A DNA stretch of 64,000 nt. Origin: Spongilla lacustris. Taxonomy: Eukaryota; Porifera; Demospongiae; Spongillida; Spongillidae. This document shows, piece by piece, positions 2,450 to 59,487 of the stretch. Numbering within the stretch: the first letter of the stretch is position 1; each line of letters begins with the position of its first letter. Position numbers and translations under genes: made by a program. Under the pieces are notes generated by a model. It was given only the letters and a program-made list of their open reading frames with translations. It did not search any database and had not been told where the DNA came from. Location: positions 10,829,071 to 10,893,070 of the forward strand of contig OX442415.1 of the NCBI GenBank assembly GCA_949361645.1, read 5' to 3'.

Positions 2450-5400
2450 ATTGAAAATGGCAAATCGCTATGCATGGTTATGCATAAGGGCCATTGATAC
2501 AGAATGTGTCATACAGGCAAAGTTGGTCCCCAGGCCTTTCAGGAGGAAGCTAGAAATAAAACTATGGTGAAAACCATACATCTCTCAGTGCCATGACCAC
2601 TTCATCATTGTGCTGATACACTACGCCAACGGCTATGCATAGTTTCACATAAGTGCAATTGGTACAGAATCTGTCACACAGGCAAAGTTGATCACCAGGC
2701 CGTACAGGAGGAAGCTAGAAATCAACCTATAGTGAAAACCACACATCTCTCAGTACAATGACCACTTGCTCAGTGCGCTGATACACTAGGCCAATAGCTA
2801 TGCATGGTTTTACATAAGTTCCATTGGTGCAGAATGTGTCACACAGGCAAAGTTCGTCCCCAGACCTTTCAGGAAGTTGCTAGAAATCAACCTATGGTGA
2901 AAACCTAACATCTCTCAGTGCCATGACCACTTGCTCAGAGCGCTGATACACTAGGCCTACAGCTATGCATGGTTTTACATAAGTGCCATTGATACAGAAT
3001 GTGTCTCACAGGCAAAGTTAGTCCCCAGGCCTTTCTGGAGGAAGCTAGAAATCAACCTATGGTGAAAACCACACATCTCTCAGTGCCATGACCACTTGTT
3101 TAGTGTGCTGATACACTAGGCCAACAGCTATGCAAGTGCCATTGATACAGAATCTGTCACACATGCAAAAATGGTCCACAGGCCTTTCTGGAGGAAGCTA
3201 GAAATCAACCTATGGTGAAAATCACACATCTCTCAGTGCCATGACCCCTTGCTCAGTGTGCTGATACACTAGGCCAACAGCTATGCATAGTTTCATATAA
3301 GTGCCATTGATACAGAATCTGTCGCACATGCAAAGATGGTCCACAGGCCTTTCTGGAGTAAGCTAGTAATCAACCTATGGTGAAAATCACACATCTCTCA
3401 GTGCCATGACCACTTGCTCAGTGTGCTGATACACTAGGCCAACAGCTATGCATGGTTTTACATATATACAGAATGTGTCACACAGGCAAAGTTAGTCCCC
3501 AGGCCTTTCTGGAGGAAGCTAGAAATCAACCTATGGTGAAAACCACACATCTCTCAGTGCCATGACCACTTGCTTAGTGTGATGATACACTAGGCCTACA
3601 GCTATGCATAGTTTTACATAAGTGCCATTGATACAGAATCTGTCACACAGGCAAAGTTGGTCCCCAGACCTTTCTGGAGGAAGCTAGAAATCAACCTATG
3701 GTGAAAACCACACATCTCTCAGTGCCATGACCACTTGCTTAGTGTGCTGATACACTACGCCAACAGCTATGCATAGTTTCACATAAGTGCCATTGGTACA
3801 AAATCTGTCACACAGGCAAAGTTGATCCCCAGGCCATACAGGAGGAAGCTAGAAATCAACCTATAGTGAAAACCACACATCTCTCAGTGCCATGACCACT
3901 TGCTCAGTGTGCTGATACACTAGGCCTACAGCTATGCATGGTTTTACATAAGTGCCATTGATACAGAATGTGTCTCACAGGCAAAGTTAGTCCCCAGGCC
4001 TTTCAGGAAGAAGCTAGAAATCAACGTATGGTGAAAATCACACATCTCTCAGTGCCATGACCCCTTGCTCAGTGTGCTGATACACTAGGCCAACAGCTAT
4101 GCATAATTTCATATAAGTGCCATTGATACAGAATCTGTCACACAGGCAAAGTTGATCACCAGGCCGTACAGGAGGAAGCTAGAAATCAACCTATAGTGAA
4201 AACCACACATCTCTCAGTACAATGACCACTTGCTCAGTGCGCTGATACACTAGGCCAATAGCTATGCATGGTTTTACATAAGTTCCATTGGTGCAGAATG
4301 TGTCACACAGGCAAAGTTCGTCCCCAGACCTTTCAGGAAGTTGCTAGAAATCAACCTATGGTGAAAACCTAACATCTCTCAGTGCCATGACCACTTGCTC
4401 AGAGCGCTGATACACTAGGCCTACAGCTATGCATGGTTTTACATAAGTGCCATTGATACAGAATGTGTCTCACAGGCAAAGTTAGTCCCCAGGCCTTTCT
4501 GGAGGAAGCTAGAAATCAACCTATGGTGAAAACCACACATCTCTCAGTGCCATGACCACTTGTTTAGTGTGCTGATACACTAGGCCAACAGCTATGCAAG
4601 TGCCATTGATACAGAATCTGTCACACATGCAAAAATGGTCCACAGGCCTTTCTGGAGGAAGCTAGAAATCAACCTATGGTGAAAATCACACATCTCTCAG
4701 TGCCATGACCCCTTGCTCAGTGTGCTGATACACTAGGCCAACAGCTATGCATTTTTACATATAAGTGCCATTGATACAGAATCTGTCACACATGCAAAAA
4801 TGGTCCACAGGCCTTTCTGGAGGAAGCTAGAAATCAACCTATGGTGAAAATCACACATCTCTCAGTGCCATGACCACTTGCTCAGTGTGCTGATACACTA
4901 TGCCAACAGCTATGCATAGTTTCATATAAGTGCCATTGATACAGAATCTGTCGCACATGCAAAGATGGTCCACAGGCCTTTCTGGAGTAAGCTAGTAATC
5001 AACCTATGGTGAAAATCACACATCTCTCAGTGCCATGACCACTTGCTCAGTGTGCTGATACACTAGGCCAACAGCTATGCATGGTTTTACATATATACAG
5101 AATGTGTCACACAGGCACAGTTAGTCCCCAGGCCTTTCTGGAGGAAGCTAGAAATCAACCTATGGTGAATACCACACATCTCTCAGTGCCATGACCACTT
5201 GTTCAGAGTGCTGATACACTAGGCGTACAGCTATGCATGGTTTTACATAGATATAGAATGTGTCACACAGCAAAGTTGGTCCCCAGGCCTTTCTGGAGGA
5301 AGCTAGAAATCAACGTATGGTGAAAACCACACATCTCTCAGTGCCATGACCACTTGCTCAGTGTGCTGATACACTCGGCCAACAGCTATGCATAGTTTTA

Positions 5401-11249: not shown

Positions 11250-12410
11250 GGTGTGATCAGGCCTTAACATATATGCCGATACACTTGCTCCTACATGTAG
11301 CAAAGACACATATGGATTTTTCTGTCATTTTAAATCAATCAGAAATGAAGTGAGTATTGATTTTTCTCGTATTTTAATAATGTCTCCTCATCAGGTGTGC
11401 TGATGGTGTGATGCAGGTATATCAGTAGATAAAGCCATCTATTGTCACGGGCACTTCGTAAGGTGATCAGTCAATTTTTTTTAACACTGTGCTGGTACAT
11501 TATGCTAATGCTCTGCAACCCTAGATCAGTGTACGTAGGCCAACTCAGTTGGGATCTGTATTGCTTCAAACACAGGAACTTGGGGAGATGTCTATCACCA
11601 CTCCGATAGATGAACATGTTCATTGCAGGCTGCTTCTCCCTCCCACTGCAAGCTTGTGTCACCTGGGGCAAAGCAACAGTGACAGCAGAACTTAATGTCA
11701 GTTACTTTGTGCTCTACGTAGACAGAGTTGCATGGATCTCCAGTAAGTCCACCAAATAGTGTGTCCTTTATTACATGTATAGTGCTATAATAGATTTATG
11801 AAGTTAGGATCTTACTGAGCTGCTTCGAAAGTGAAAGCACCCGCTACTGTATAGTACACCATATGGATCCTCACATGGCAACCCGTGCAACAGCCATTGT
11901 TTGGACTGTTTCAGTGGTACAATCAGTGCACCTCAACGTGTGTTGTGGATTCTCTGCTACCAGGATGAAACGACAGAGAGTAACTGAAAACACATTGCGT
12001 TTGAAACATGTCTGTGTATTGTTATAATGTTTACTGCATTGCAAATAATATTTTTTAAAAAATGATTTTAAAGCGAAGAATAAAAAAACATTAGATGCGC
12101 GCTAAATAAGGATTACGGTATAGCTTTGAATTTCACGGGTGATTCATCAGCTATTTCACACATGAATCAGGTGCGGTTGATAATGATTCACCCGTGATAT
12201 CCCGAAAACTTGTGATTCACCCGCGTACTAGTAGAGACGCTACGCAAGCGTTAACGTCTGTGATTCATTGTTAAAAAGCTGGCCGTGTATGTAGAGCCAG
12301 AGATGTGGAGCGCATCAATTAGGCATGCAGGGCGGCCCTTCATGATTTCATCTTCCGAGACGCAGGTGTTTTGGTGAGTATACTATGTGAATTTAGTAGG
12401 GTAGCGTAGG
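11250..12410. other. no gene supported
   Basis: Short frames only. Around 12130-12240 the word GTGATTCACCCG recurs three times in both orientations, which may mark the end of a non-autonomous element. Nothing else was recognised. Confidence 0.4.
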
Positions 12411-12466
12411 GTATGTTCGGTAGTGGACGTGCAGAACAGGCATATCTTCGATGCAGTGAAGGAGGA

Positions 12467-12940
12467 GATATGGCCTTCTCCCTATACTACTGGCCTTCTC
12501 CGTATACAACCCCTATAATGGTGGGCTTCTTATACTGTTGGCCTTCTTCCTATACTATTGGACTGGTGGCCTTCTCCCTATACTGCATGTTGGCCTTCTC
12601 CCTAGACTGTTGGCTTTCTCCCTATACTGTTGGCCTTCTCCCTATATTGTTGGCCTTCTCCCTATACTGCATGTTGGCCTTCTCCCTATACTGTTGGCCT
12701 TCTCCCTATACTGTTGGCCTTCTCCCTATACTGTTGGCCTTCTCCCTATACTGTTGGCCTTCTCCCTATACTGTTGGCCTTCTCCCTATACAGTTGGCCT
12801 TCTCCCTATACTGTTGGCCTTTTCCCTATACTGTTGGCCTTCTCCCTATACTGTTGGCCTTCTCCCTATACTGTTGGCCTTCTCCCTATACTGTTGGCCT
12901 TCTTCCTATACTGTTGGCCTTCTCCCTATACTGTTGGAAG
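12467..12940 (+). repeat. 20-bp minisatellite, ~22 copies
   Basis: Tandem units of GGCCTTCTCCCTATACTGTT, almost invariant between 12670 and 12930 and more variable before. Because 20 is not a multiple of 3, the array is open in all three plus frames and gives overlapping nonsense proteins rich in SLYCWPSPYTVGLLPILLAF-type residues. Those long frames are a property of the repeat, not evidence of a gene. Confidence 0.95.
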
Positions 12941-13517
12941 AGCTTGCAGAGCAAGATGGAACATGCAGAATACAAAGGTATGTATATTACATTATGTGCA
13001 TATGTACATGTATTGAATTGTGCATGTACTGCATACATATGTGCATATGTGCACTGGACATGTACATGTACATGTTTTTTGTACACACTGTTCTTTTGTC
13101 TTACAGTGTAAATAATGTGCAAAATACATGTCATATGTGTTGTGCAGTGACTATTCATGTACTTATTGCAGTCTTCACAGCTGGAGAAGTGTGTTGAGGA
13201 GTCATCATCCGTCCTTGAATTCCAGCTGAAGGGGTCATCATCCTAATGTCAGCTCCTGCAGTTCCAGCTGACTGAGTTGGAGGGCAAGATGGCTCAGGCA
13301 GTGAGCACAGCTGTGGAGCCTGCAGGGGAAGGCTAGGACTGCCAGCTCCAATGAGAGGCTTGCCACAGCTAGAGTGGGCCTTGCACGAGGTACATGATGC
13401 ATGCTAATCATGCATGTGTGCGCTCTACATTGTACATGTACAGGTGCATGTATTTATAATGTATGTACATGTACATGTACTATGCACAGGTACACATGTG
13501 CATATATATATATATAT

Positions 13518-19059: not shown

Positions 19060-19945
19060 CTCATGACTGTACCTGCACGTCCATTACCTGAAAGATATAG
19101 GCACAATAAATATATTGTGACTGCAACTGACTACTTTTCATGCCTGGTCTGATGTACAATCATATCAGATCAAGGAAGGGAATTTGTTGATCATCTATCA
19201 AATTAATTTCCTTCCTTTTTAAAAAGTATCCATACATGCTCACTGGGCAATTCCTTTTCAGCTGTTTATTTAAACTCACTGTAATTGAGCGCAGGCAAAC
19301 CAATGGTTTGGATGAGCGATTGAATCAAACGCTGACAAGAGCTCTTATAAAAATTTCTAAAGCCAAGGAAAACTGATGAAAACATAGATGCAGCCTTATA
19401 TGCATATTGCATTGCTAAGCATGACTCATCTGATCGCAATTTAGCCCCTTCTTCATGATGTAGAATTGACACCCTCATATGGCAATTGACCATGAAATCA
19501 GCCCCAAGACTAACACAGGTGCAAGCATGCCTACAAGTGACATGGAGGAAACTCTTGGTAACCTTGTATCAATCAGAAAGAAATATCATCTTGAAGCTCC
19601 TAAAAACATTCTATGCGCTCAACAACGACAAAAATCACAATGTGATGCCAAACATGACACATTCATGTAAAGGAGGGGTGATAAACTTTAATTGTTTCAC
19701 ATATTAATTCTATTTCTCAAATTTCCTGTAGAATTTAGTACTGGTACTACGGTTTTGTTGAAGAATATGAGAAACACACATAGGATGGGAGGAAAATGGA
19801 TACCAAGTGGCAAGGTCCTTATGAAGTTGTCCAAAGTTTAAGCAAAGGACGTTGCAAATTGAAGTTAGCTAGAGTTTGTATTTTGAAAAAGGCTTACAAT
19901 AGTTTGGTACTGAAAGAATTTCTTGTACCAATAAAGGTGGGTAAA
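19060..19945 (+). pseudogene. Ty3/gypsy-like integrase, broken, copy 1
   Basis: Plus-strand frames carry KYIVTATDYFS, SDQGREFV, NGLDERLNQTLTRALIKISK, ENIDAALYAYCIAKHDSSD, MAIDHEISP, then QCDAKHDTF, GTTVLLKN..HRMGGKW and a chromodomain-like tail KGRCKLKLARV. This is the catalytic core and C-terminal part of a gypsy-class integrase (DD35E type; the D and E positions fall in TATDYF, SDQGRE and the ERLNQTL helix). Frame changes and stops occur, and a GTAAAG...CTGTAG intron-like insert of ~75 bp separates DTF from the GTTVLLKN part. Copy 2 at 45900-46773 shares the same breaks, so decay preceded duplication. Confidence 0.8.
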
Positions 19946-20008
19946 TGATTACTGCACAATATGGTATGCTGTGAAATAGTTGCATGTAAACAATGATTTT
20001 TTCCACAA

Positions 20009-20464
20009 TGTACATATCAAAGCCTACATGGTACACACACAGTACAGTGTACATATCAAAGCCTACATGGTACACACGCAGTACAGTGTACATATCAAAG
20101 CCTACATGGTACACACACAGTACAGTGTACATATCAAAGCCTACATGGTACACACACAGTACAGTGTACATATCAAAGCCTACATGGTACACACACAGTA
20201 CAGTGTACATATCAAAGCCTACATGGTACACACACAGTACAGTGTACATTTCAAAGCCTACATGGTACACACACAGTACAGTGTACATATCAAAGCCTAC
20301 ATGGTACACACACAGTACAGTGTACATGTCAAAGCCTACATGGTACACACACTACAGTGTACATTTCAAAGCCTACATGGTACACACACAGTACAGTGTA
20401 CATATCAAAGCCTACATGGTACACACACAGTACAGTGTACATATCAAAGCCTTCATGGTACAGT
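20009..20464. repeat. 39-bp minisatellite, ~11.5 copies, copy 1
   Basis: Tandem 39-bp units containing GTACATATCAAAGCCTACAT and GGTACACACACAGTACAGT. As 39 is divisible by 3 and the unit lacks stops in several frames, it yields periodic 13-residue frames on both strands (for example YMVHTQYSVHIKA). These are repeat artefacts unless expression is shown. It sits directly after the integrase relic in both blocks. Confidence 0.95.
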
Positions 20465-20549
20465 GTCCCCGTTTTTAAAAGGGAGTACAACCATTAATTG
20501 AGAGGAAACAGTTGAGTAAATTAAATTTGTTTAGTTACTGTGGAATTCA

Positions 20550-31913: not shown

Positions 31914-31987
31914 ATCAAAGTACATGCATATATAACGCAGGTGGTTGTAATACTTTTTCTATCAGCCGAAGAATTTCGCCTACCGAA

Positions 31988-34499
31988 ATGATCAAGATAC
32001 TGATAGTTGTTGCCGTTCTGATGGCAGCCTCTCTGGAGGCCCGTGAGATAATAGATGGAAACAAAGCTGCTGAAACGGTGAGAATGTACACGCGTGTATA
32101 CGGGCATGCGCAATTTAACATTTTGCGCTTAATTTTGCATACTTTTCAGGAACAAAATAGCAGTGCGTTTCAGTTTTAGCGTTCGCTCCAATCACTTTAG
32201 CTAACATTTCTGCAGAATCGCAATACTATATCGCTATGGGAGCTGATGGCCAAGCCCAGATACGTAAGTGGTGAAGAGTTAGGGCATGAAACGGGCATCA
32301 ACTGCGCATGTAAACGTGCAAGTATATACTAGCCAATTTGTTTAGGAGTACTTATGTTTTGCTATATCAAATATACATTGTACATGTACATGAATTTTAT
32401 TTTATTATAGGCACCCGTTCAGAGTAAGCTATTTGCCGCCTACTGTATACTTGCAAATTACCTTTGTTGAAATCACTTAGTGGGACAGTTGAAAGCCAGG
32501 TACTATGTTGCATATTGTATGCGTGTACTCTCTGTTTAATTTCATCTAACATGCGCATCGCGTCGATGAAATATACAAGTCATGTACAGTAAGCGTCAAT
32601 ATTGTAGTTCAGCTTCAATAAACTGTACACTCCCGAAATTTCGTCTGTCATACCGAACAGAAAGTAAGTAAACTTTGCGCAATTAACTGATATTATGCTT
32701 CATGTCACTCTTTATCTCACTTCTGCATTGTTTGTAAGTGCGGCGTACGTTAACATTATATTTATCGGTTAAAAACGTTTGCTCATGCAAATTCCACCTT
32801 CGCCTGGCATACATGTAACGCAGTGGGTAAGGACCTGTACAGATTACACTATCGTGTGCGTTCATTTAACCACTTTTGTATACCGGCCGTGTTTAATTAT
32901 CAAAACAACTTATACAGCTTGTAAGAACATGTACGTATGGATTTCTTGTGTAATTTATGTTTCTGCATCATACTGCATTTCCGATTTGGGTACGTCATGC
33001 ATATGGTCAATGACAAAGGACTTGTGTGTAAGTACACGCGTTGCATAGTGAATTTCAGTCATTACCGATGTTTCCACTGCCACACAGCCGGTATGTATAT
33101 AGATATACATGTACATATAAATTTTACTGCGAGGTATTTCACTTCAATACTACCTTTTATGGTTCGCTTTCATCATCTATAGCCTGTATGTCGAAGTAGT
33201 AACGTTTTTAGAGCATATATATGTTTTACGCACCAGTGTTTGCATGATTTTAGTTCACCGTAAGTGCGGCTCATTGTGCAGGATTAAAAATATCGTGACA
33301 TAAACCACCCAATAACGAATGGCTTTGCCGGGATGATAAACGTAGAATGTAAGTGAATTGCTGTATAATTACTGAACAATAAACAATGTATTTCTTCCAT
33401 CAGTGCGTAAGTACATCTACTCAGAGACACCTAGGAGCATTTACATGTATACCTTTTTCTCGTTCTACGCCATTTAACAATTCCTGCAGTGTAAAGTAAG
33501 TCCATCTGAAAGTCTGCATTTCAGCGAATTCATGCGTGCATTTATACATGTCTGTGTTGCAAATAAACGATGCAGAAAGACGTAAGGAAATCTATTTTAA
33601 CTAAATAATATCTATATCGAACTAACATATACCTCTACACTTTTCAAAATGAAGGGGGTAAGTGCAACTCGGGTGTGCTATACCAAAGTCGTTAATTTAC
33701 CTTTTGCGTCGCTACTTTGTTACTCTCAAAGTGTGTAAGTACATCAATTGCTCCTAAGCACCATGATATTTTTCACATGATGCATCCTTTAAATGATCGA
33801 TCGCAAACTATAACTATTACCAGTGTGTAAGTTCCTTAGCTGTGCATTTGATTTCACTATAGGCATACCACTTACCTATCTCACCACCACAATACATGCA
33901 TGTGCATGGCTGAACATTATGTACAGTGGGTAGGTGCAAATCGCTAGAACGCTCACACTACTTTGTACTGATTTCCTATTGGCTGGGTATCGATCACGGA
34001 TTATTTAGGCCTTTCTTGTAAGTTTAATAATTTATCATTTGCTGTTTTTGGGACCCTTTATTTCTTCGACACATCGATCGTTGTGAAATAATGAAAATCA
34101 AAAAGCATCCGGACAGCGTAAGTGCTTCTATATACAGTTTACACTGACTGTCACATATATGTGTTTTGTTCTGGCTTGATGGAATGCTCAGCCTGTAAGT
34201 GCTAATATTGCGTTTTGGCATGATCGTTATAATGAATTCTAATAACTCATTTAAGTGCTTCGTAAGTTTTGTTTTATCGAACGAATCCAAGAAAGCATTA
34301 AAAACTTTCACCATGCCCACAGATCGGCTAAACAGAACGGGTAAGACGTTTAACTGATTAATTTGTGTCACTATCTACCATACTTGCATCTGAACAGGAA
34401 TCAGCAATGGGTAAGACAGGATGTGTTTAACACTATCACCAGTCCTTCTGTACAACCAAAGACATCCAAACAGATTGCTTCAATTGGACAACATGCTAA
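31988..34499 (+). CDS. microexon gene: secreted cysteine-containing peptide, ~27 exons
   Basis: Exon 1 (31988-32077) encodes MIKILIVVAVLMAASLEARE, a clear signal peptide, and ends at GTGAGA. Exon 2 is 32216-32263 (48 nt). Then come tiny exons between strong splice sites, mostly AG|NNN|GTAAGT: 32411-32423, 32489-32499, 32580-32588 (weak), 32661-3, 32824-6, 32918-20, 33019-27, 33088-90, 33183-5, 33254-9, 33346-8, 33404-6, 33490-5, 33576-81, 33655-7, 33732-4, 33824-6, 33927-9, 34009-17, 34106-17, 34192-4, 34256-61, 34336-40 and 34398-410. Most lengths are multiples of 3; the others pair to keep phase (13+11, 5+13). Introns are mostly 55-160 nt. No in-frame stop appears. Six Cys codons fall in the exons at 33019, 33404, 33490, 33732, 33824 and 34256. 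The last exon is ambiguous: 34443-34499 (three Cys, 32-nt intron) or 34474-34527 (no Cys, 63-nt intron). The product would be ~110 residues. The architecture recalls schistosome microexon genes; function is unknown. Confidence 0.8.
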
Positions 34500-34580
34500 G
34501 CGCTTATACGTGATTGAGCAGCTATAATTTTGAGTAATTTTAATTTCAAATAACACGTACAGAGTGCGCAGTGCCGATAA

Positions 34581-45899: not shown

Positions 45900-46773
45900 T
45901 ACACGTCCATTACCTGAAAGATATAGGCACAATATATATATTGTGACTGCAACTGACTACTTTTCATGCCTGGCCTGATCTACAATCATATCAGATCAAG
46001 GAAGGGAATTTGTTGATCATCTATCAAATTAATTTCCTTCCTTTTTAAAAAGTATCCATACATGCTCACTGGGCAATTCCTTTTCAGCTGTTTATTTAAA
46101 CTCACTGTAATTGAGCGCAGGCAAACCAATGGTTTGGATGAGCGATTGAATCAAACGCTGACAAGAGCTCTTATAAAAATTTCTAAAGCCAAGGAAAACT
46201 GATGAAAACATAGATGCAGCCTTATATGCATATTGCATTGCTAAGCATGACTCATCTGATCGCAATTTAGCCCCTTCTTCATGATGTATAATTGACACCC
46301 TCATATGGAAATTGACCATGAAATCAGCCCCAAGACTAACACAGGTGCAAGCATGCCTACAAGTGACATGGAGGAAACTCTTGGTAACCTTGTATCAATC
46401 AGAAAGAAATATCATCTTGAAGCCCCTAAAAACATTCTATGCGCTCAACAACGACAAAAATCACAATGTGATGCCAAACTTGACACATTCATGTAAAGGT
46501 GGGGTGATAAAATTTAATTGTTATACATATTATTTCTATTTCTCAAATTTCCTGTAGAATTTAGTACTGGTACTAAGGTTTTGTTGAAGAATATGATAAA
46601 CACACATAGGATGGGAGGAAAATGGATACAAAGTGGCAAGGTCCTTATGAAGTTGTCCAAAGTTTAAGCAAAGGACGTTGCAAATTGAAGTTAGCTAGAG
46701 GTTGTATTTTGAAAAAGGCTTACAATAGTTTGGTACTGAAAGAATTTCTTGTACCAATAAAGGTGGGTAAATG
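45900..46773 (+). pseudogene. Ty3/gypsy-like integrase, broken, copy 2
   Basis: Same blocks as 19060-19945, including ATDYFSCLA-type start, GLDERLNQTLTRALIKISK, ENIDAALYAYCIAKHDSSD, QCDAKLDTF and the GTTVLLKN tail, with the same stops and the same intron-like insert. The shared damage dates the loss of function before the block duplication. Confidence 0.75.
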
Positions 46774-46834
46774 ATTACTGCACAATATGGTATGCTGTGA
46801 AATAGTTGCATGTAAACAATGATTTTTTCCACAA

Positions 46835-47305
46835 TGTACATATCAAAGCTAACATGGTACACACGCAGTACAGTGTACATATCAAAGCCTACATGGTACA
46901 CACGCAGTACAGTGTACATATCAAAGCCTACATGGTACACACACAGTACAGTGTACATATCAAAGCCAACATGGTACACACGCAGTACAGTGTACATATC
47001 AAAGCCTACATGGTACACACACAGTACAGTGTACATATCAAAGCCTACATGGTACACACACAGTACAGTGTACATATCAAAGCCTACATGGTACACACAC
47101 AGTACAGTGTACATATCAAAGCCTACATGGTACACACGCAGTACAGTGTACATATCAAAGCCTACATGGTACACACACAGTACAGTGTACATATCAAAGC
47201 CTACATGGTACACATACACTACAGTGTACATATCAAAGCCTACATGGTACACACACAGTACAGTGTACATATCAAAGCCTACATGGTACACATACAGTAC
47301 AGTGT
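46835..47305. repeat. 39-bp minisatellite, ~12 copies, copy 2
   Basis: Same unit as 20009-20464, with different positions of the variant units (ACACGCAG, GCCAACATGG, ACATACA), so the arrays have rearranged or exchanged units since duplication. Confidence 0.95.
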
Positions 47306-47388
47306 CCCCGTATTTAAAAGGGAGTACAACCATTAATTGAGAGGAAACAGTTGAGTAAATTAAATTTGTTTAGTTACTGTGGAATTCA

Positions 47389-47967: not shown

Positions 47968-50584
47968 AAATGTACTATTTAATACCTCAAGCTCAAACGG
48001 ATCATCTATGTCAGTGGATTTAAGATGCCACGGATCATTGTTATGTTGATGCAGTGTTTCAGAGGAAAGATTGCTCTCCATGAATACTGATGAAGTAGGG
48101 ATAGTGATGTATCATCACATAGATTCAGTACTATACTTACCTGTAGGTACTGGTTGGCAACAACAGAAATGCGAATCACTTGGCTTAATATTTCTCCATG
48201 GAAACAATTTAAAATGCAAGGATATACGATGCGAATAGGAATATAACAGGCTCGTAAGGCAAATTTTCGAAGCAGAGAAGATGGGAACTATTATTGCACA
48301 GATTCTAACGGGGTCACCAATAGGTTCGTCTTCTAGTAACTTCTCATAGATGTAGTCGATTGGTGAATGGGCAACAGATAATTGAAATCAGTGCAGCTAC
48401 TTCCATGCTCAGTACAACCATTTACACATTTTCACATAACGGGGGCACTTATCAGTGGTTGAGACACGCATCCTTTGAAAACGTTGGTGAAATTTGATTT
48501 AACACCGGATCCGCGAGAACTAACCATTTTTTAAGGGGTGTTTTGTAGAACCGCGTTTTGAAAAAAATAGTCGGAAATGTTCTAAAAGTTATAAAACATA
48601 TCTAGTATAGTGATTCAACCTTAATTATGATGTATGAGGAAATTTTAAGCTTTTTATCTACCTCGTAGGCTACCCAGCATTCGTACAAAGCGGAAAGGGT
48701 AAGAGCCGTCACCGTTATCGGTACACTTTTTTTCTATGGCATTCTACATGCTGAAAAACATCACATATGTCGCTTTATGTATTAAGTATGTCAATTTCAT
48801 ACTAAGGTTGGCTCTACATGACTATACCAGCACAAAACAAGTGTTGTAGGACAACAATGTATTTTATAACGGTCTGAGGCGAGGCAACGAATTGCGCATG
48901 CGCACACGGACTTCTTTTCAGGCCGTAGTTAAATTCATGCAGCAGCGCGCAACGAGCACTTCTAGACAATGATGCTAGCAAGGAACTAAATTTAACAGTG
49001 CAAGTGCAGTTACGTGTACAGACAATATATGGATTGAGTTAACTAAGTATTCATTGAGAAAACATGTGTTCTTCGATGCGCTTAATGAGCTCAGGCTTGT
49101 TTCCTGATTTCTTCATGCCATAGTTGTTAAGATACGCCTGTAGTTCAGACGTCTTCCACAAGGAAAGGTCCTTTGCATGGTCAAGATCCTCAAAGGAAAC
49201 TCTAGCCTTCTTCTTCTTGCCAATTGATCCTTCAGATTGAGGCCTTGGACCACGCTTACATCCACTTGTAGAAGTAGACACTTCTGTCATCTGGCCAATA
49301 GTTTGGTAGACAGCACGAATTTTCCCGGACAACGGTAGCTCACTTAATCTGATGGTCTTTTGTTTCTCCATCTCTTCAAGCCTGGAATACACTCCATCAG
49401 CAGATATTATTGATTTACCTTGCTCTTTGCTCTCACCAACTTTCCAGCACTCATTGATGATGATTTTTACCCTTGTTGTGAGTTCTGGTTGCATGTTCTT
49501 CCTTACATATGCCCATCCAGAATAGAAATTGGGCTCAAAAGTTGCAAATGCATCCTCATCATCTGTGGCAATGTGAGATGCTCTGTCAATAGCACTTGAA
49601 ACAGTGAGGTTCATTTGTCCCAGGAGTTTATCAGCATGCCTCATTGCATTACTGAGTGCATCATGGTACTTGCTGTTCTCCACCACAGATGTGCTTGTCA
49701 AGCAACTTTTGGGACTTGTAGTGATAGAAACACTTTGAACATTGCGGATAAACAGCTCTAATCTGCCTCAATGCCTCCTCATGTTCTTTTTGCTTTTCCA
49801 TTTTCTGCAACTCCTTGTTGGACTTGGTTCTCTCTGTGTACCTCTTCTTCACCATCCTGACCTTTGTGCACGCATCATTGCTGTCACTATTCAGTAACAC
49901 CGTTACTCCCGTGAAATTGATGCCATCCTCACCCATTGGAGTAATGAGTGATGATGCATGGCATGAAGGCACATGCACACTGAGAGATGGTATTTTCTGC
50001 CCAAGGCAATTGTAAAAAAGAATTTTCTGCTGGTTAGAAGCAGTTGTGATATACTGAGCAGCATAGAATTGTGTGATTCCATTTATGGAAGGGCATTTTG
50101 CAGATCGATATGGAGCGCAAAAATCTGGCTTTATCAGCAGCACAGTAGTGTTGGTGATGGACTTCTCCATCAATGCCACTGCACGCTGTTTTGGAGTGGA
50201 CACCTTCCGTCCACCATCTCCCTGCCTCAAATATGCTTCGATGTGTGTCTGCTGGTGAGAAAAATGAGTATCACAAACATCTTTCCCACTTTGTGCTTCA
50301 TTGTGGTAGTATGCCACAAGTTTGAAACCAGCAGCTGAGCACACATGAGGAAAAAGTAGCTTTGTTTGCTTTCCAGCAAGATTTCTGGCGTTGTCACTTT
50401 GAATGATTAACCTTGTAACATGAGGAAACCGAAATCTCAAAGCGTGCAATGCTGCCTCAAAGCATGACAGCACAACATTTGCGTCACATTTTTGCTCTCC
50501 TTGAACAATACAGTCTAAGAAGTGGAGAGTTGGTTCATTCTTTTCTTCATCGTCACGATATGCACCCACTTCTTCAGACTCAAT

Positions 50585-50950
50585 ATTGCCATGCTCACTA
50601 CCCTCACCCCCCACCTCATGCTCACTTCCCTCATACCCCCCTCATGCTCACTTCCCTCACCTCCCACCTCATGCTCACTTTCCTCACCCCTCACCTCATG
50701 CTCACTTCCCTCACTCTCAGTCTCATGTTCACTTCCCTCACCCCACACCTCATGCTCACTTCCCTCATCTCCACCTCATGCTCACTTCCCTCACCCCTCA
50801 CCTCATGCTCACTTCCCTCATCCCCCACCTCATGCTCACTTCCCTCACCTCCCACCTCATGCTCACTTTCCTCACCCCTCACCTCATGCTCACTTCCCTC
50901 ACCCTCAGTCTCATGCTCACACTCAGTCTCATGCTCACTTCCCTCACCCA
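50585..50950 (-). repeat. 27-30-bp coding minisatellite (acidic repeat)
   Basis: About 13 units of TCATGCTCACTTCCCTCACC plus a short variable part; on the minus strand they give GEGSEHEV(R/G)-type repeats. Unit lengths differ (26-30 bp), so the frame is lost and regained within the array, which makes it the main site of frame change in the transposase gene. Confidence 0.9.
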
Positions 50951-52705
50951 CAGTATCATGCTCACCATCTTCATCCCACCCGTACGTTTGTACTTGACCT
51001 TCCTCCTGCTCATATCCCATCTGATGCCTTTCTCCTTCAAGCACACTACCCTCATCCCACTTCTGTGCACCTTCCTCCTCACAAACATATTCATGTCCCT
51101 CACCCCATTCTTGCTCATCTCCATCATCCTTTACCTCATCCTCATCAAGCTCACTCAGAACACAACCATCACCCTCATCAAAATCGCAATCCTGTTCGAT
51201 ATCCACTGCCTCTGTCTGATTCTGATTCCGCAATCGTGCTTCTTCCAAACTGTAATCTATCTCTACATAGTGTTTGTCAGTACTTTCAGATGGACTGCTT
51301 ATCACATCCTCTTGAGTAGTGCTTGGTTTTATGAAAACACCAGCTCCCCACCACATCATTCCTTTTTTACCGTAATAGGAGTCACCTCCCTCTCGAAATC
51401 CCTTTGCTAGAAATTTCTGTTTGAAATCGTATACAATGTAGGCGGTACTTGAGTCCATTTCAGCAATGGCAAGCTTCATCCTGCGGGCTTGTTGAGCAGC
51501 TTGCATTACATGAGCCATATACCTGTATGAGCGACGCTCACATTGGTGTATGGTAAGGAGTAAATCAGCTATTTCCGGGAGCCGGGTAGGGTCAACATCA
51601 AGTTTGGTCACAGCCACATGCCTCAACCTGTCATAAAAGAGAAACGGACTTCGGCAAGCATAGCACTCAAGCCGCCCACCAGCCTTTGGGTTCTTATAAG
51701 GCTTCCTGTGAGGCACAAGATCAAGAGCATATACAGGTGAGTGTGTTGTAGCATTGTTGCTCTGCTGCACTACTGATCCCTTAGCCTGAGCACAACAGCT
51801 GAGCTGGCTTCGAACCATGCTTACTAAGGCCTCCTGTGTTGCTGGTTCATCCAATTTTTCCGGCAATGACACCAACTTCTCCAGCTCCTGATATGCCATG
51901 AACTGCTGGGCTTCATATTCTTGAGGCTGATGGAAGTCCTCACATTGGTCTTTGGTGTTCTCTCATGCCTTCACACCTTCTCTTGCATGCAGCACATAGC
52001 CGTAGCTAAGGAAGGTGTACACATCAGCACGGAGGCCACGCAGCTCATCACGCAGGGTGTGATCTACATCTGATGGAGGGGCAAGTGCATTGATCACTTT
52101 GTCCACAATGCTGAAATTGTCTATGTGAAAGTTCACCTTAATGTAATCCACCCCTGCCCGTGCCTCTTGTTGCTTACCACCACCAGTGATGTGTTTCACT
52201 ATGATGTAAAACAATGACCTGCTTATGTGTGCCTTTCCAGGTATGGCACCTTCATGCTTTGCAACGTACTCATTGTACATTGTTGCAATGTCATTTTTCA
52301 GTACAAGAGACCTCATTGCAAACACATTCTCGAGCTTCTTCCACTTTTCCTTTTTATTGGGGGTACGCTTTATAGCTTCCCATGCTAGCCGGCTGATGTT
52401 CTCATCACTATAGATGAATTCAACAGCAAATTCTATTACATCCTTAGGCACTCAAGACTGTGTTTTGCTGAAGTGTTGAATCTTTATGCCATGATCAAGG
52501 TATAACTTGTCGACCTTTGCCTGGAACATCAGCTTAGCTGCATGGTCTTTGTTGAGTGACAGCAAAGAAGCCACATACGTTATGGGAACATCAACAAAGG
52601 TAACAAGAAGCATCCTTGAATTGTAAGACGTGAGGAGCTTCTCTCCTTTTAGTATGTCGCTGAGGTTGGTTGGTATTGTGGTTAGTACCTGAGAATCCAT
52701 CATAT

Positions 52706-52963
52706 CACTGGCGGACGCAGGATTTAAAGAAAGGGGGGGTTGTAGTGGAGGGTGATCACCAAAAGGGGGAGGGTGCGGGAGGGGGATGTGCCCCCTCCCG
52801 CGCGAAGCGCGGAAGCTTTTGAAAACGTTAATTCGGTGTGCTAAAATGCATGAAAAAATTACGAGTTTTCAACTAGCTGAGCATGCTCGTTACTTTTTCA
52901 TTTACTTATGCCGCATTTTGCGTATTATGTAATAGGAGGAAAGGGGGGGTTGCAACCCCCCAA

Positions 52964-58837: not shown

Positions 58838-59487
58838 ATGAGCGTGAGTCGTGCAAGGCAACACTTTGGCGCAGAATGCGAGGCTGCAGTTAACAAGCAG
58901 ATCAACATGGAGCTGCATGCCATGTACACCTACACCTCGATGGTGGGTGATAAAATGTACCCTAATGGATAGTGCAGGTTGGCTAGCTTGTACTTATATA
59001 TACAAACAGGCATATTACTTCGAGCGTGACGACGTTGACCTGAAGGGGTTCGCCAAGTTCTTCCGAGACTCAGCCAAGGAAGAATTCGAGCACGCCCAAA
59101 AGTTTATGAAATTTCAGACGGATCGAGGAGGAAGGATCGTTCTCCAGGATATCAGGAAACCGGAGAAGGACGAGTGGGGAACTGGTCTGGACGCCATGGA
59201 GGCCGCCCTGGCTCTGGAGAAGACCGTGAACCAGGCTCTCCTGGACCTGCACACAATCTCGGACAAGCACAGTGACTATCACGTACGTTTCATGCATGAA
59301 TCACATCCATCTTCTATACCCATTAGCTGTACTGATCCATCTATAGATGTCGGAATTTATAGAGAGAGAGTATCTAAATGAGCAGGTGGAATCCATCAGG
59401 AAGATTGCTGGCTATGTCACCAACCTGAAGCGTGTTGGACCTGGTCACGGAGAATACCACTTCGACCGTGAAACCCTAGACCACTAA
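58838..59487 (+). CDS. ferritin, H-type, cytosolic (three exons)
   Basis: Exons 58838-58942, 59010-59282 and 59347-59487, each ending on a codon boundary with GTGGGT and GTACGT donors and CAG and TAG acceptors, give 172 residues, the usual ferritin length. It opens [20 protein letters not shown] and has no signal peptide. Ferroxidase-centre residues of H chains are present: Glu in NMELHAMY with Tyr of MYTYTSM, the EEFEHA helix (Glu and His), Glu in LALEKTVNQ, and Gln in YLNEQVES. The GRIVLQDI strand and [14 protein letters not shown] helix are also typical. Oligomerises into a 24-subunit iron-storage shell that oxidises Fe(II), by family knowledge. It is flanked on both sides by related mobile elements but is itself intact. 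Confidence 0.97.

Follow-up and report, generated by a model that had tools for sequence, protein, structure and literature searches.

A predicted secreted eight-cysteine peptide gene of Spongilla lacustris with a core of microexons, likely one of a demosponge class of genes with single-codon exons

The window analysed here, a stretch of 64,000 nucleotides of the Spongilla lacustris genome (contig OX442415.1), carries on its forward strand a gene model extending from 31988 to 34527, composed of 29 inferred in-frame exons separated by introns of 53-147 nt (Table 1). The product of the first exon, judged by eye, is a textbook signal peptide, and the coding sequence of 360 nt contains a single stop, at its end, in agreement with an earlier, sequence-only reading of the region in which no stop arose. 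Twelve exons measure 3 nt, five 6 nt, three 9 nt and one 12 nt; the remaining inner exons are of 13, 48, 13, 19, 5 and 13 nt, and two end exons complete the model. From e6 to e27, 21 phase-0 exons of 3 to 12 nt encode a core of 35 residues (SCT K CG W L DLC P P FT N C CK KD G C C W AFL HPDS P CF), with eight cysteines, one exon apiece. The product of the gene is predicted, from its sequence, to be a small secreted 8-cysteine peptide.

The exons of this gene (copy A) were placed with its paralogues as a guide, by alignment with copy B and by reading of the copies on contig 6 (C6). The 9-nt exon e6 was added because its cysteine recurs in copies B and L028; in the C6 copies it is fused with e5. 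Some donors are weak, and an alternative acceptor for the last exon (start at 34462) is also in frame. The placement bears out the at least twelve single-codon exons previously counted, as well as the downstream pair of 5 and 13 nt that restores the phase. The upstream pair of 13 and 11 nt, proposed at the same time, gives way to exons of 13, 13 and 19 nt, and GTAAGTGC at 32734 does not serve as a donor in the model, where it contains the acceptor AG of e8 (TGC GGC).

Table 1. Inferred elements of the window gene (copy A), in window coordinates, with their state in the other copies.
Element	Position	Strand	Length or product	Remarks
TATA-like box	31928..31935	+		sequence motif about 50 nt upstream of the start codon; conserved in copy B
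e1	31988..32077	+	90 nt; signal peptide MIKILIVVAVLMAASLEA + REIIDGNKAAET	ends in phase 0
e2	32150..32162	+	13 nt	weak donor GTGCGT
e3	32216..32263	+	48 nt	B 21 nt, L028 18 nt; unplaced in L025 and L027
e4	32411..32423	+	13 nt
e5	32481..32499	+	19 nt	restores phase 0; weak donor GTACTA
e6	32580..32588	+	SCT	Cys 1; Cys in B and L028, absent in L025 and L027
e7	32661..32663	+	single codon K
e8	32739..32744	+	CG	Cys 2; Cys also in B, L025, L027, L028
e9	32824..32826	+	single codon W	A and B only
e10	32918..32920	+	single codon L	A and B only
e11	33019..33027	+	DLC	Cys 3
e12	33088..33090	+	single codon P
e13	33183..33185	+	single codon P
e14	33254..33259	+	FT
e15	33346..33348	+	single codon N	B: L; L025 and L027: H; L028: K
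e16	33404..33406	+	single codon C	Cys 4; also in B, L025, L027, L028, L029
e17	33490..33495	+	CK	Cys 5
e18	33576..33581	+	KD
e19	33655..33657	+	single codon G	B: N, 3/3 nt changed
e21	33732..33734	+	single codon C	Cys 6; also in B, L028, L029; absent in L025 and L027
e22	33824..33826	+	single codon C	Cys 7; also in B, L025, L027, L028, L029
e23	33927..33929	+	single codon W	C6 copies: 12 nt
e24	34009..34017	+	AFL	B: LIG; unplaced in C6 copies
e25	34106..34117	+	HPDS	B: 6 nt; C6 copies: 3 nt
e26	34192..34194	+	single codon P
e27	34256..34261	+	CF	Cys 8
e28	34336..34340	+	5 nt	identical in B
e29	34398..34410	+	13 nt	with e28 restores phase 0
e30	34474..34527	+	54 nt	last exon; stop TAA

The motif GTAAG occurs 22 times on the plus strand of 31988-34499 and once on the minus strand, and elsewhere in the window about 2.3 times per 2.5 kb. 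For 16 of these 22 donors the nearest upstream AG is found at 3n nt (3n>0). The shuffled-sequence test named by the sequence-only reading was run, and it puts the density of AG-3n-GTAAG units far above chance: whereas 16 units were counted here, 1000 dinucleotide shuffles yielded 0.41 on average and never more than 4, and none of the 90 other window tiles exceeded 4 on either strand. Chance or low complexity as the source of the array is ruled out by these shuffles and tiles and by the controls with reversed patterns given below; the dense array behind the signal-peptide exon is real, and sequence and paralogues agree on a signal-peptide gene having such an array as its body. Two tiles near 24-28 kb contained 3 and 4 units, and inspection of their sequence by eye recognised no array.

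As for the rest of the window, an ORF with a ferritin exon, whose named relatives are ferritins, lies at 58848-59381 (+). Two separate copies of one tandem repeat (19869-20501 and 46695-47369) have several open frames (e.g., VYHVGFDMYTVLC), and a long tandem repeat at 12410-13197 (+) is open in three frames (CWPSPYTVGLLPILLAFSLY). A cluster of long ORFs at 49051-52868 (-) is possibly a mobile element; one of these ORFs ends in a stretch that we take to resemble a SAP-type DNA-binding motif. In the wider genome, COX1 on contig 51, translated with code 4, shows 95% identity to a cluster named Demospongiae, which marks the genome as a demosponge's. Fragments of COX1 were also observed beyond contig 51, on C15, C2, C3, C1, C12 and C17, and are probably nuclear copies of mitochondrial DNA.

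A search of the assembly (248.6 Mb, 51 contigs) located paralogues of the window gene on contigs 1 and 6, namely copy B (C1:10.72 Mb, minus strand) and copies L025, L027 and L028 on C6, together with partial matches (copies C, D, E and L026). The CDS is divisible by 3 and has a single terminal stop in five of six gene models (A, B, L025, L027, L028); the sixth copy, L029 (C6:533001-541000), misses its 5' half, carries an insert in one intron and has no complete CDS. By eye, this insert, at about 2920-3520 of the locus, has inverted ends. In the order A, B, L025, L027, L028, the lengths of e2 are 13, 22, 22, 22 and 22 nt and those of e4 are 13, 16, 22, 22 and 22 nt, always 1 mod 3, while e5, of 19, 22, 28, 28 and 25 nt, varies by multiples of 3. 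Copies A and B agree on the 3' end (e28-e30), which is less certain in the C6 copies. The cysteines of e8, e11, e16, e17, e22 and e27 are present in all five models; the total number of cysteines varies, e6 and e21 being without Cys in L025 and L027.

The recent duplicates L025 and L027 differ at 99 of 1683 intron positions (5.9%), at none of 105 positions of exon 1, at 0/44 acceptor AG positions, 1/110 donor positions and 0/18 positions of Cys codons, and at 27 of the 94 other microexon positions (Fisher 3e-11). Between A and B, the differences amount to 380/1924 in introns, 2/24 in Cys codons, 30/77 at other microexon positions, 3/53 in AG and 11/140 at donor positions; between L027 and L028, to 271/1546, 0/16, 49/93, 1/44 and 9/110, respectively. 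Copies A and L028, with an intron divergence of 45% and an unreliable alignment, differ at 7/22 Cys, 37/62 other, 18/50 AG and 39/127 donor positions. Splice sites are imperfectly kept in the older pairs (A/B, L027/L028 and A/L028). Exon positions that change faster than introns, accompanied by cysteines and splice sites that change more slowly, point to a diversifying disulfide-rich peptide, and by this comparison of sequences the microexons are coding exons under diversifying selection. At that level of evidence the positions of the exons, their splice-site motifs, their frame and the selection acting on them are established.

Six core cysteines are constant across the models of this family, and most other residues are variable. 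In L025 and L027 the arrangement is C-x6-C-x5-CC-x9-C-x6-C, a knottin-like spacing with the order C-C-CC-C-C and short loops; the window gene retains the knottin cysteine order, with two extra Cys. A profile search of the PDB returned six sequences at E<=10, none of them significant: trichomaglin (E 0.16, the best), granulin A (0.82), granulin-4 (2.8), Jingzhaotoxin (7), a venom polypeptide (7.6) and a granulin (9.8). A protein search that relies on shared 5-residue words alone found no spliced relative; its finds were three exon-1 ORFs of this family that read through unspliced.

The paralogue search for which the sequence-only reading had called led further, to a whole class of such loci, in which as many as 40 single-codon exons follow one another. 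The pattern CAG-NNN-GTAAGTATCA occurs 757 times in the genome and once in the reversed control. With gaps of 2, 4 and 6 nt in place of 3, the counts are 5, 12 and 34 (reversed controls 15, 4 and 5), so that codon-sized exons are the rule for this donor. The genome-wide count of stops covered TAA and TGA, which were found at 1 of the 757 units, about 21-24 being expected by arithmetic from the pattern and codon counts. A second pattern, a pair of AGNNNGTAAGT separated by 45-75 nt, gave 698 matches against 55 in the reversed control; a cluster at C1:19059k, inside the 698, is a plain tandem repeat and was excluded from reading as an artefact. The pair-pattern matches listed are the first ones, on contig 1. 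Of the array loci read (L033 onward), more than 12 have, like the window gene, single codons between splice-site motifs, here in runs. In 13 C1 loci the nearest AG lies exactly 3 nt upstream of 198 of the 229 donors in the longest runs. L033 presents 40 consecutive single-codon exons, spelling RRCPSHCFPDCCGPDPCFDIQCPPECCGCPPAGEGCGPRG, and its paralogue L043 has 39, spelling RRCPSHCFPDCCGPDPCFDPRCSPECCACPGEGEGCGPG. Elsewhere the runs are shorter or broken (6 units in L038, 7 donors in L035); L048 spells GPP runs (GPPGPPGPP) and L047 IPPIPPIP. The longest run of L040 (C1:987001-994000) reads Y followed by six GAT codons, a homopolymer made from separate exons.

Among 365 units of 17 loci, Pro (74), Cys (57) and Gly (54) are the commonest residues, and one stop occurs. 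A TGA unit is present in the array of L037 and an additional one on C5. In 301 strict units from 19 loci, single codons strongly prevail for Pro (CCT, 67/68), Cys (TGT, 39/44) and Asp (GAT, 18/19), GAA is found 9 times and GAG never, and other residues have mixed codons (GGA 27 and GGT 21; CGT 16/25 of Arg; AAA 5 and AAG 3). The third codon base is T in 216 of the same 301 units, although the donor consensus usually has G ahead of GT; perhaps the choice of codons in the arrays is constrained by the way tiny exons are spliced. As regards divergence, the two 15.1-Mb arrays, L033 and L043, differ at 116/3207 intron positions, 11/120 codon positions, 0/80 AG and 1/200 donor positions, with Cys kept in 10/10; L034 and L035 differ at 122/2279 intron positions, 10/57 codon positions, 0/38 AG and 2/95 donor positions, with Cys kept in 3/3. 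Codon positions differ at 0/42 between L041 and L044, and at 3/18, third positions only, between L038 and L039.

A signal exon of the type MLKELxLLVTLLALFADARPQ was found upstream and on the same strand in 14 of 17 array loci, within the sequence fetched. L035, a broken array locus, has this exon without ATG, L045 matches it in part, and for L046 a candidate lies just beyond the fetched stretch, at C17:7869385. Candidates for this exon occur genome-wide at 61 places on 17 contigs at E<=1 (48 at E<=0.01), and the window gene is absent from these 61. Two such places were fetched regardless of arrays: L051 carries about 30 units in a run, L050 four scattered ones. The loci share an exon 3 of 53 or 38 nt, in either case 2 mod 3. 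As read by eye in six of seven loci compared (L033, L042, L043, L047, L048 and L049, the seventh being L051), it shifts the frame from phase 1 to the phase 0 of the array that follows. Readings by hand of the 15.1-Mb array in phase 1, which gives a stop, and in phase 2, which gives a hydrophobic string, were dropped because the common exon 3 fixes phase 0. An acidic propeptide exon and exon 3, common to the same six loci despite their different cores, constitute a prepro organisation upstream of the arrays. The introns of the window gene compare with the array intron at a mean identity of 0.58 (random 0.57) and a maximum of 0.69 (random 0.63), there is a small excess at intron 3' ends, and the signal exons share 47% over 19 residues (E 0.67). 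What links the window gene to the main arrays is thus mainly architecture, sequence support being weak. The gene is likely a member of a demosponge class whose genes have many codons standing between splice-site motifs of their own.

The introns of L033 are near-copies of one another (mean pairwise identity 0.79, n=40), and at least 776 genomic matches to their 88-nt consensus were counted, with 40 of 165 candidates scored; among the matches listed, copies of the array intron cluster in arrays. Some array introns are 100% identical and exactly 3 nt apart, which gives a period of 91, and blocks of three units are repeated (PPI in L047, GPP in L048). Near-copies, period and block repeats all speak for a non-adaptive ratchet, in which a strongly spliced 91-bp tandem repeat of intron plus codon multiplies by unequal exchange and single-codon exons are tolerated, not useful, an account to which we give serious weight, somewhat short of even odds. 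Against it stand the codons themselves. The codon is shared in 74% of 27 unit pairs with identical introns, but in 33% of 39 pairs with an intron divergence >0 and <1.5% and in 46% of 61 pairs at 1.5-3%, all these pairs being non-independent. Codons that differ between units with near-identical introns imply that duplication spreads the units and that something recodes them, most simply selection; these differences and the near-absence of stops from the array units indicate that the codons are at least selected.

The interpretation preferred here, with a probability of about 0.88, is that the window contains a gene for a small secreted 8-Cys peptide, belonging to a class characterised by splice-flanked codons, stepwise splicing and duplicable cassettes. 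That this demosponge would encode secreted peptides of a large class one residue at a time, with a splice-flanked 3-nt exon in a duplicable cassette for every core amino acid, is probable too, if slightly less firmly so. Because a 3-nt exon hardly leaves room for spliceosomes on both sides at the same time, splicing would proceed stepwise and by intron definition, each removal adding one codon to the end of the growing exon and keeping the following GTAAGT donor available. Single units of intron plus codon (88+3 nt in young arrays), or blocks of them, would behave as cassettes that can be duplicated, lost or recoded, and such changes would alter the peptide by whole residues without frameshift. 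The peptide would then be exported and lose its signal and propeptide, and its Cys-rich core would fold by disulfides, in a knottin-like manner in L025 and L027. By analogy, other Cys-rich peptides of sponges (PMC13418204) make an outward role, in defence or signalling, seem likely.

One alternative concerns how many products a single gene would give. Any subset of the core exons stays in frame, since in the window gene all 21 core exons have phase 0 and a length of 3n, and one array offers 40 single codons; subsets joined per cell or individual by combinatorial alternative splicing could yield a large repertoire from one gene. This is rather doubtful, as the aligned Cys codons are kept in recent pairs (0/18, 2/24 and 0/16 differ; 10/10 and 3/3 kept), which argues for one main product. 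An introner-like invasion, in which copies of one intron entered an older, ordinary gene between its codons, would account for a single intron family with so many matches; insertion predicts varied exon lengths and phases, however, and the spacing is 3 nt (757 cases, compared with 5 at 2 nt and 12 at 4 nt), the intron matches listed cluster in arrays, and for the one core tried, that of L033, a contiguous ancestor sought in the genome was not found in a search rated uninformative, so that we consider this origin improbable. A chance likeness to splice units in a satellite or noncoding repeat is hardly credible, for although the young arrays are regular tandem repeats, stops are nearly absent from them, Cys codons and splice sites are kept in recent pairs, Pro, Cys and Asp show a strong one-codon bias, and a signal-peptide exon lies upstream.

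If the cassette interpretation is true, proteins can grow, shrink and diversify by single residues, the smallest coding module possible, which suggests a way of building proteins with one residue as the unit of duplication and would explain the hypervariability of these peptides around fixed cysteines. A row of 40 single-codon exons defies the expectation that exons need room for the spliceosome, and the ordered splicing of tiny exons becomes directly testable. A further implication is that whole families of peptides can escape gene predictors and RNA aligners.

In the literature covered, outside whose scope were subscription journals and preprints, no account of runs of single-codon exons was found, and among the matches listed for microexons, also in combination with sponges or knottins, none was by title on such genes. 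The microexon genes (MEGs) of schistosomes, to which the sequence-only reading had likened the window gene, are a fair analogy: they too have a signal peptide, many short exons that are mostly 3n, and fast-evolving secreted products, and in the window gene most of the CDS lies in symmetric short exons behind a signal-peptide exon. Exon size leaves membership unsupported, as 12 of the 27 internal exons of the window gene are of 3 nt and none is of 15 nt. MEG exons are mostly of 15 bp (PMC10526429), with a range that the abstract of that paper puts at 3-81 bp and its text at 6-81 bp. MEG introns extend from 100 to almost 5000 bp, whereas those described here measure about 50-150 nt and in young arrays are copies of one 88-nt intron; unlike those of MEGs, the sponge products are Cys-rich or Gly/Pro-rich, and many of their exons are single codons. 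MEG proteins were not found by the search for shared 5-residue words, and MEGs are here regarded as an analogy, not as a family match. The bicycle genes of aphids, according to extracts of PMC9168663, encode fast-evolving putative effectors and have many small internal exons of one phase, and a relative with over 100 microexons is reported there; their internal exons are almost all in phase 2 (PMC9168663), whereas the sponge core exons are in phase 0 and often single codons. The stryphnines and asteropsins, knottins of demosponges, are likewise small Cys-rich peptides, and stryphnine precursors comprise signal, intermediate and mature regions (PMC13418204, in part); neither group was found by the same 5-residue-word search. 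Finally, isolated tiny exons, such as the 1-nt exon of Arabidopsis APC11, for which successive removal of the two flanking introns is proposed in PMC4674806, or 3-nt alternative exons, are similarly too small for exon definition, but they are single cases in ordinary genes, whereas the sponge arrays form runs of up to 40.
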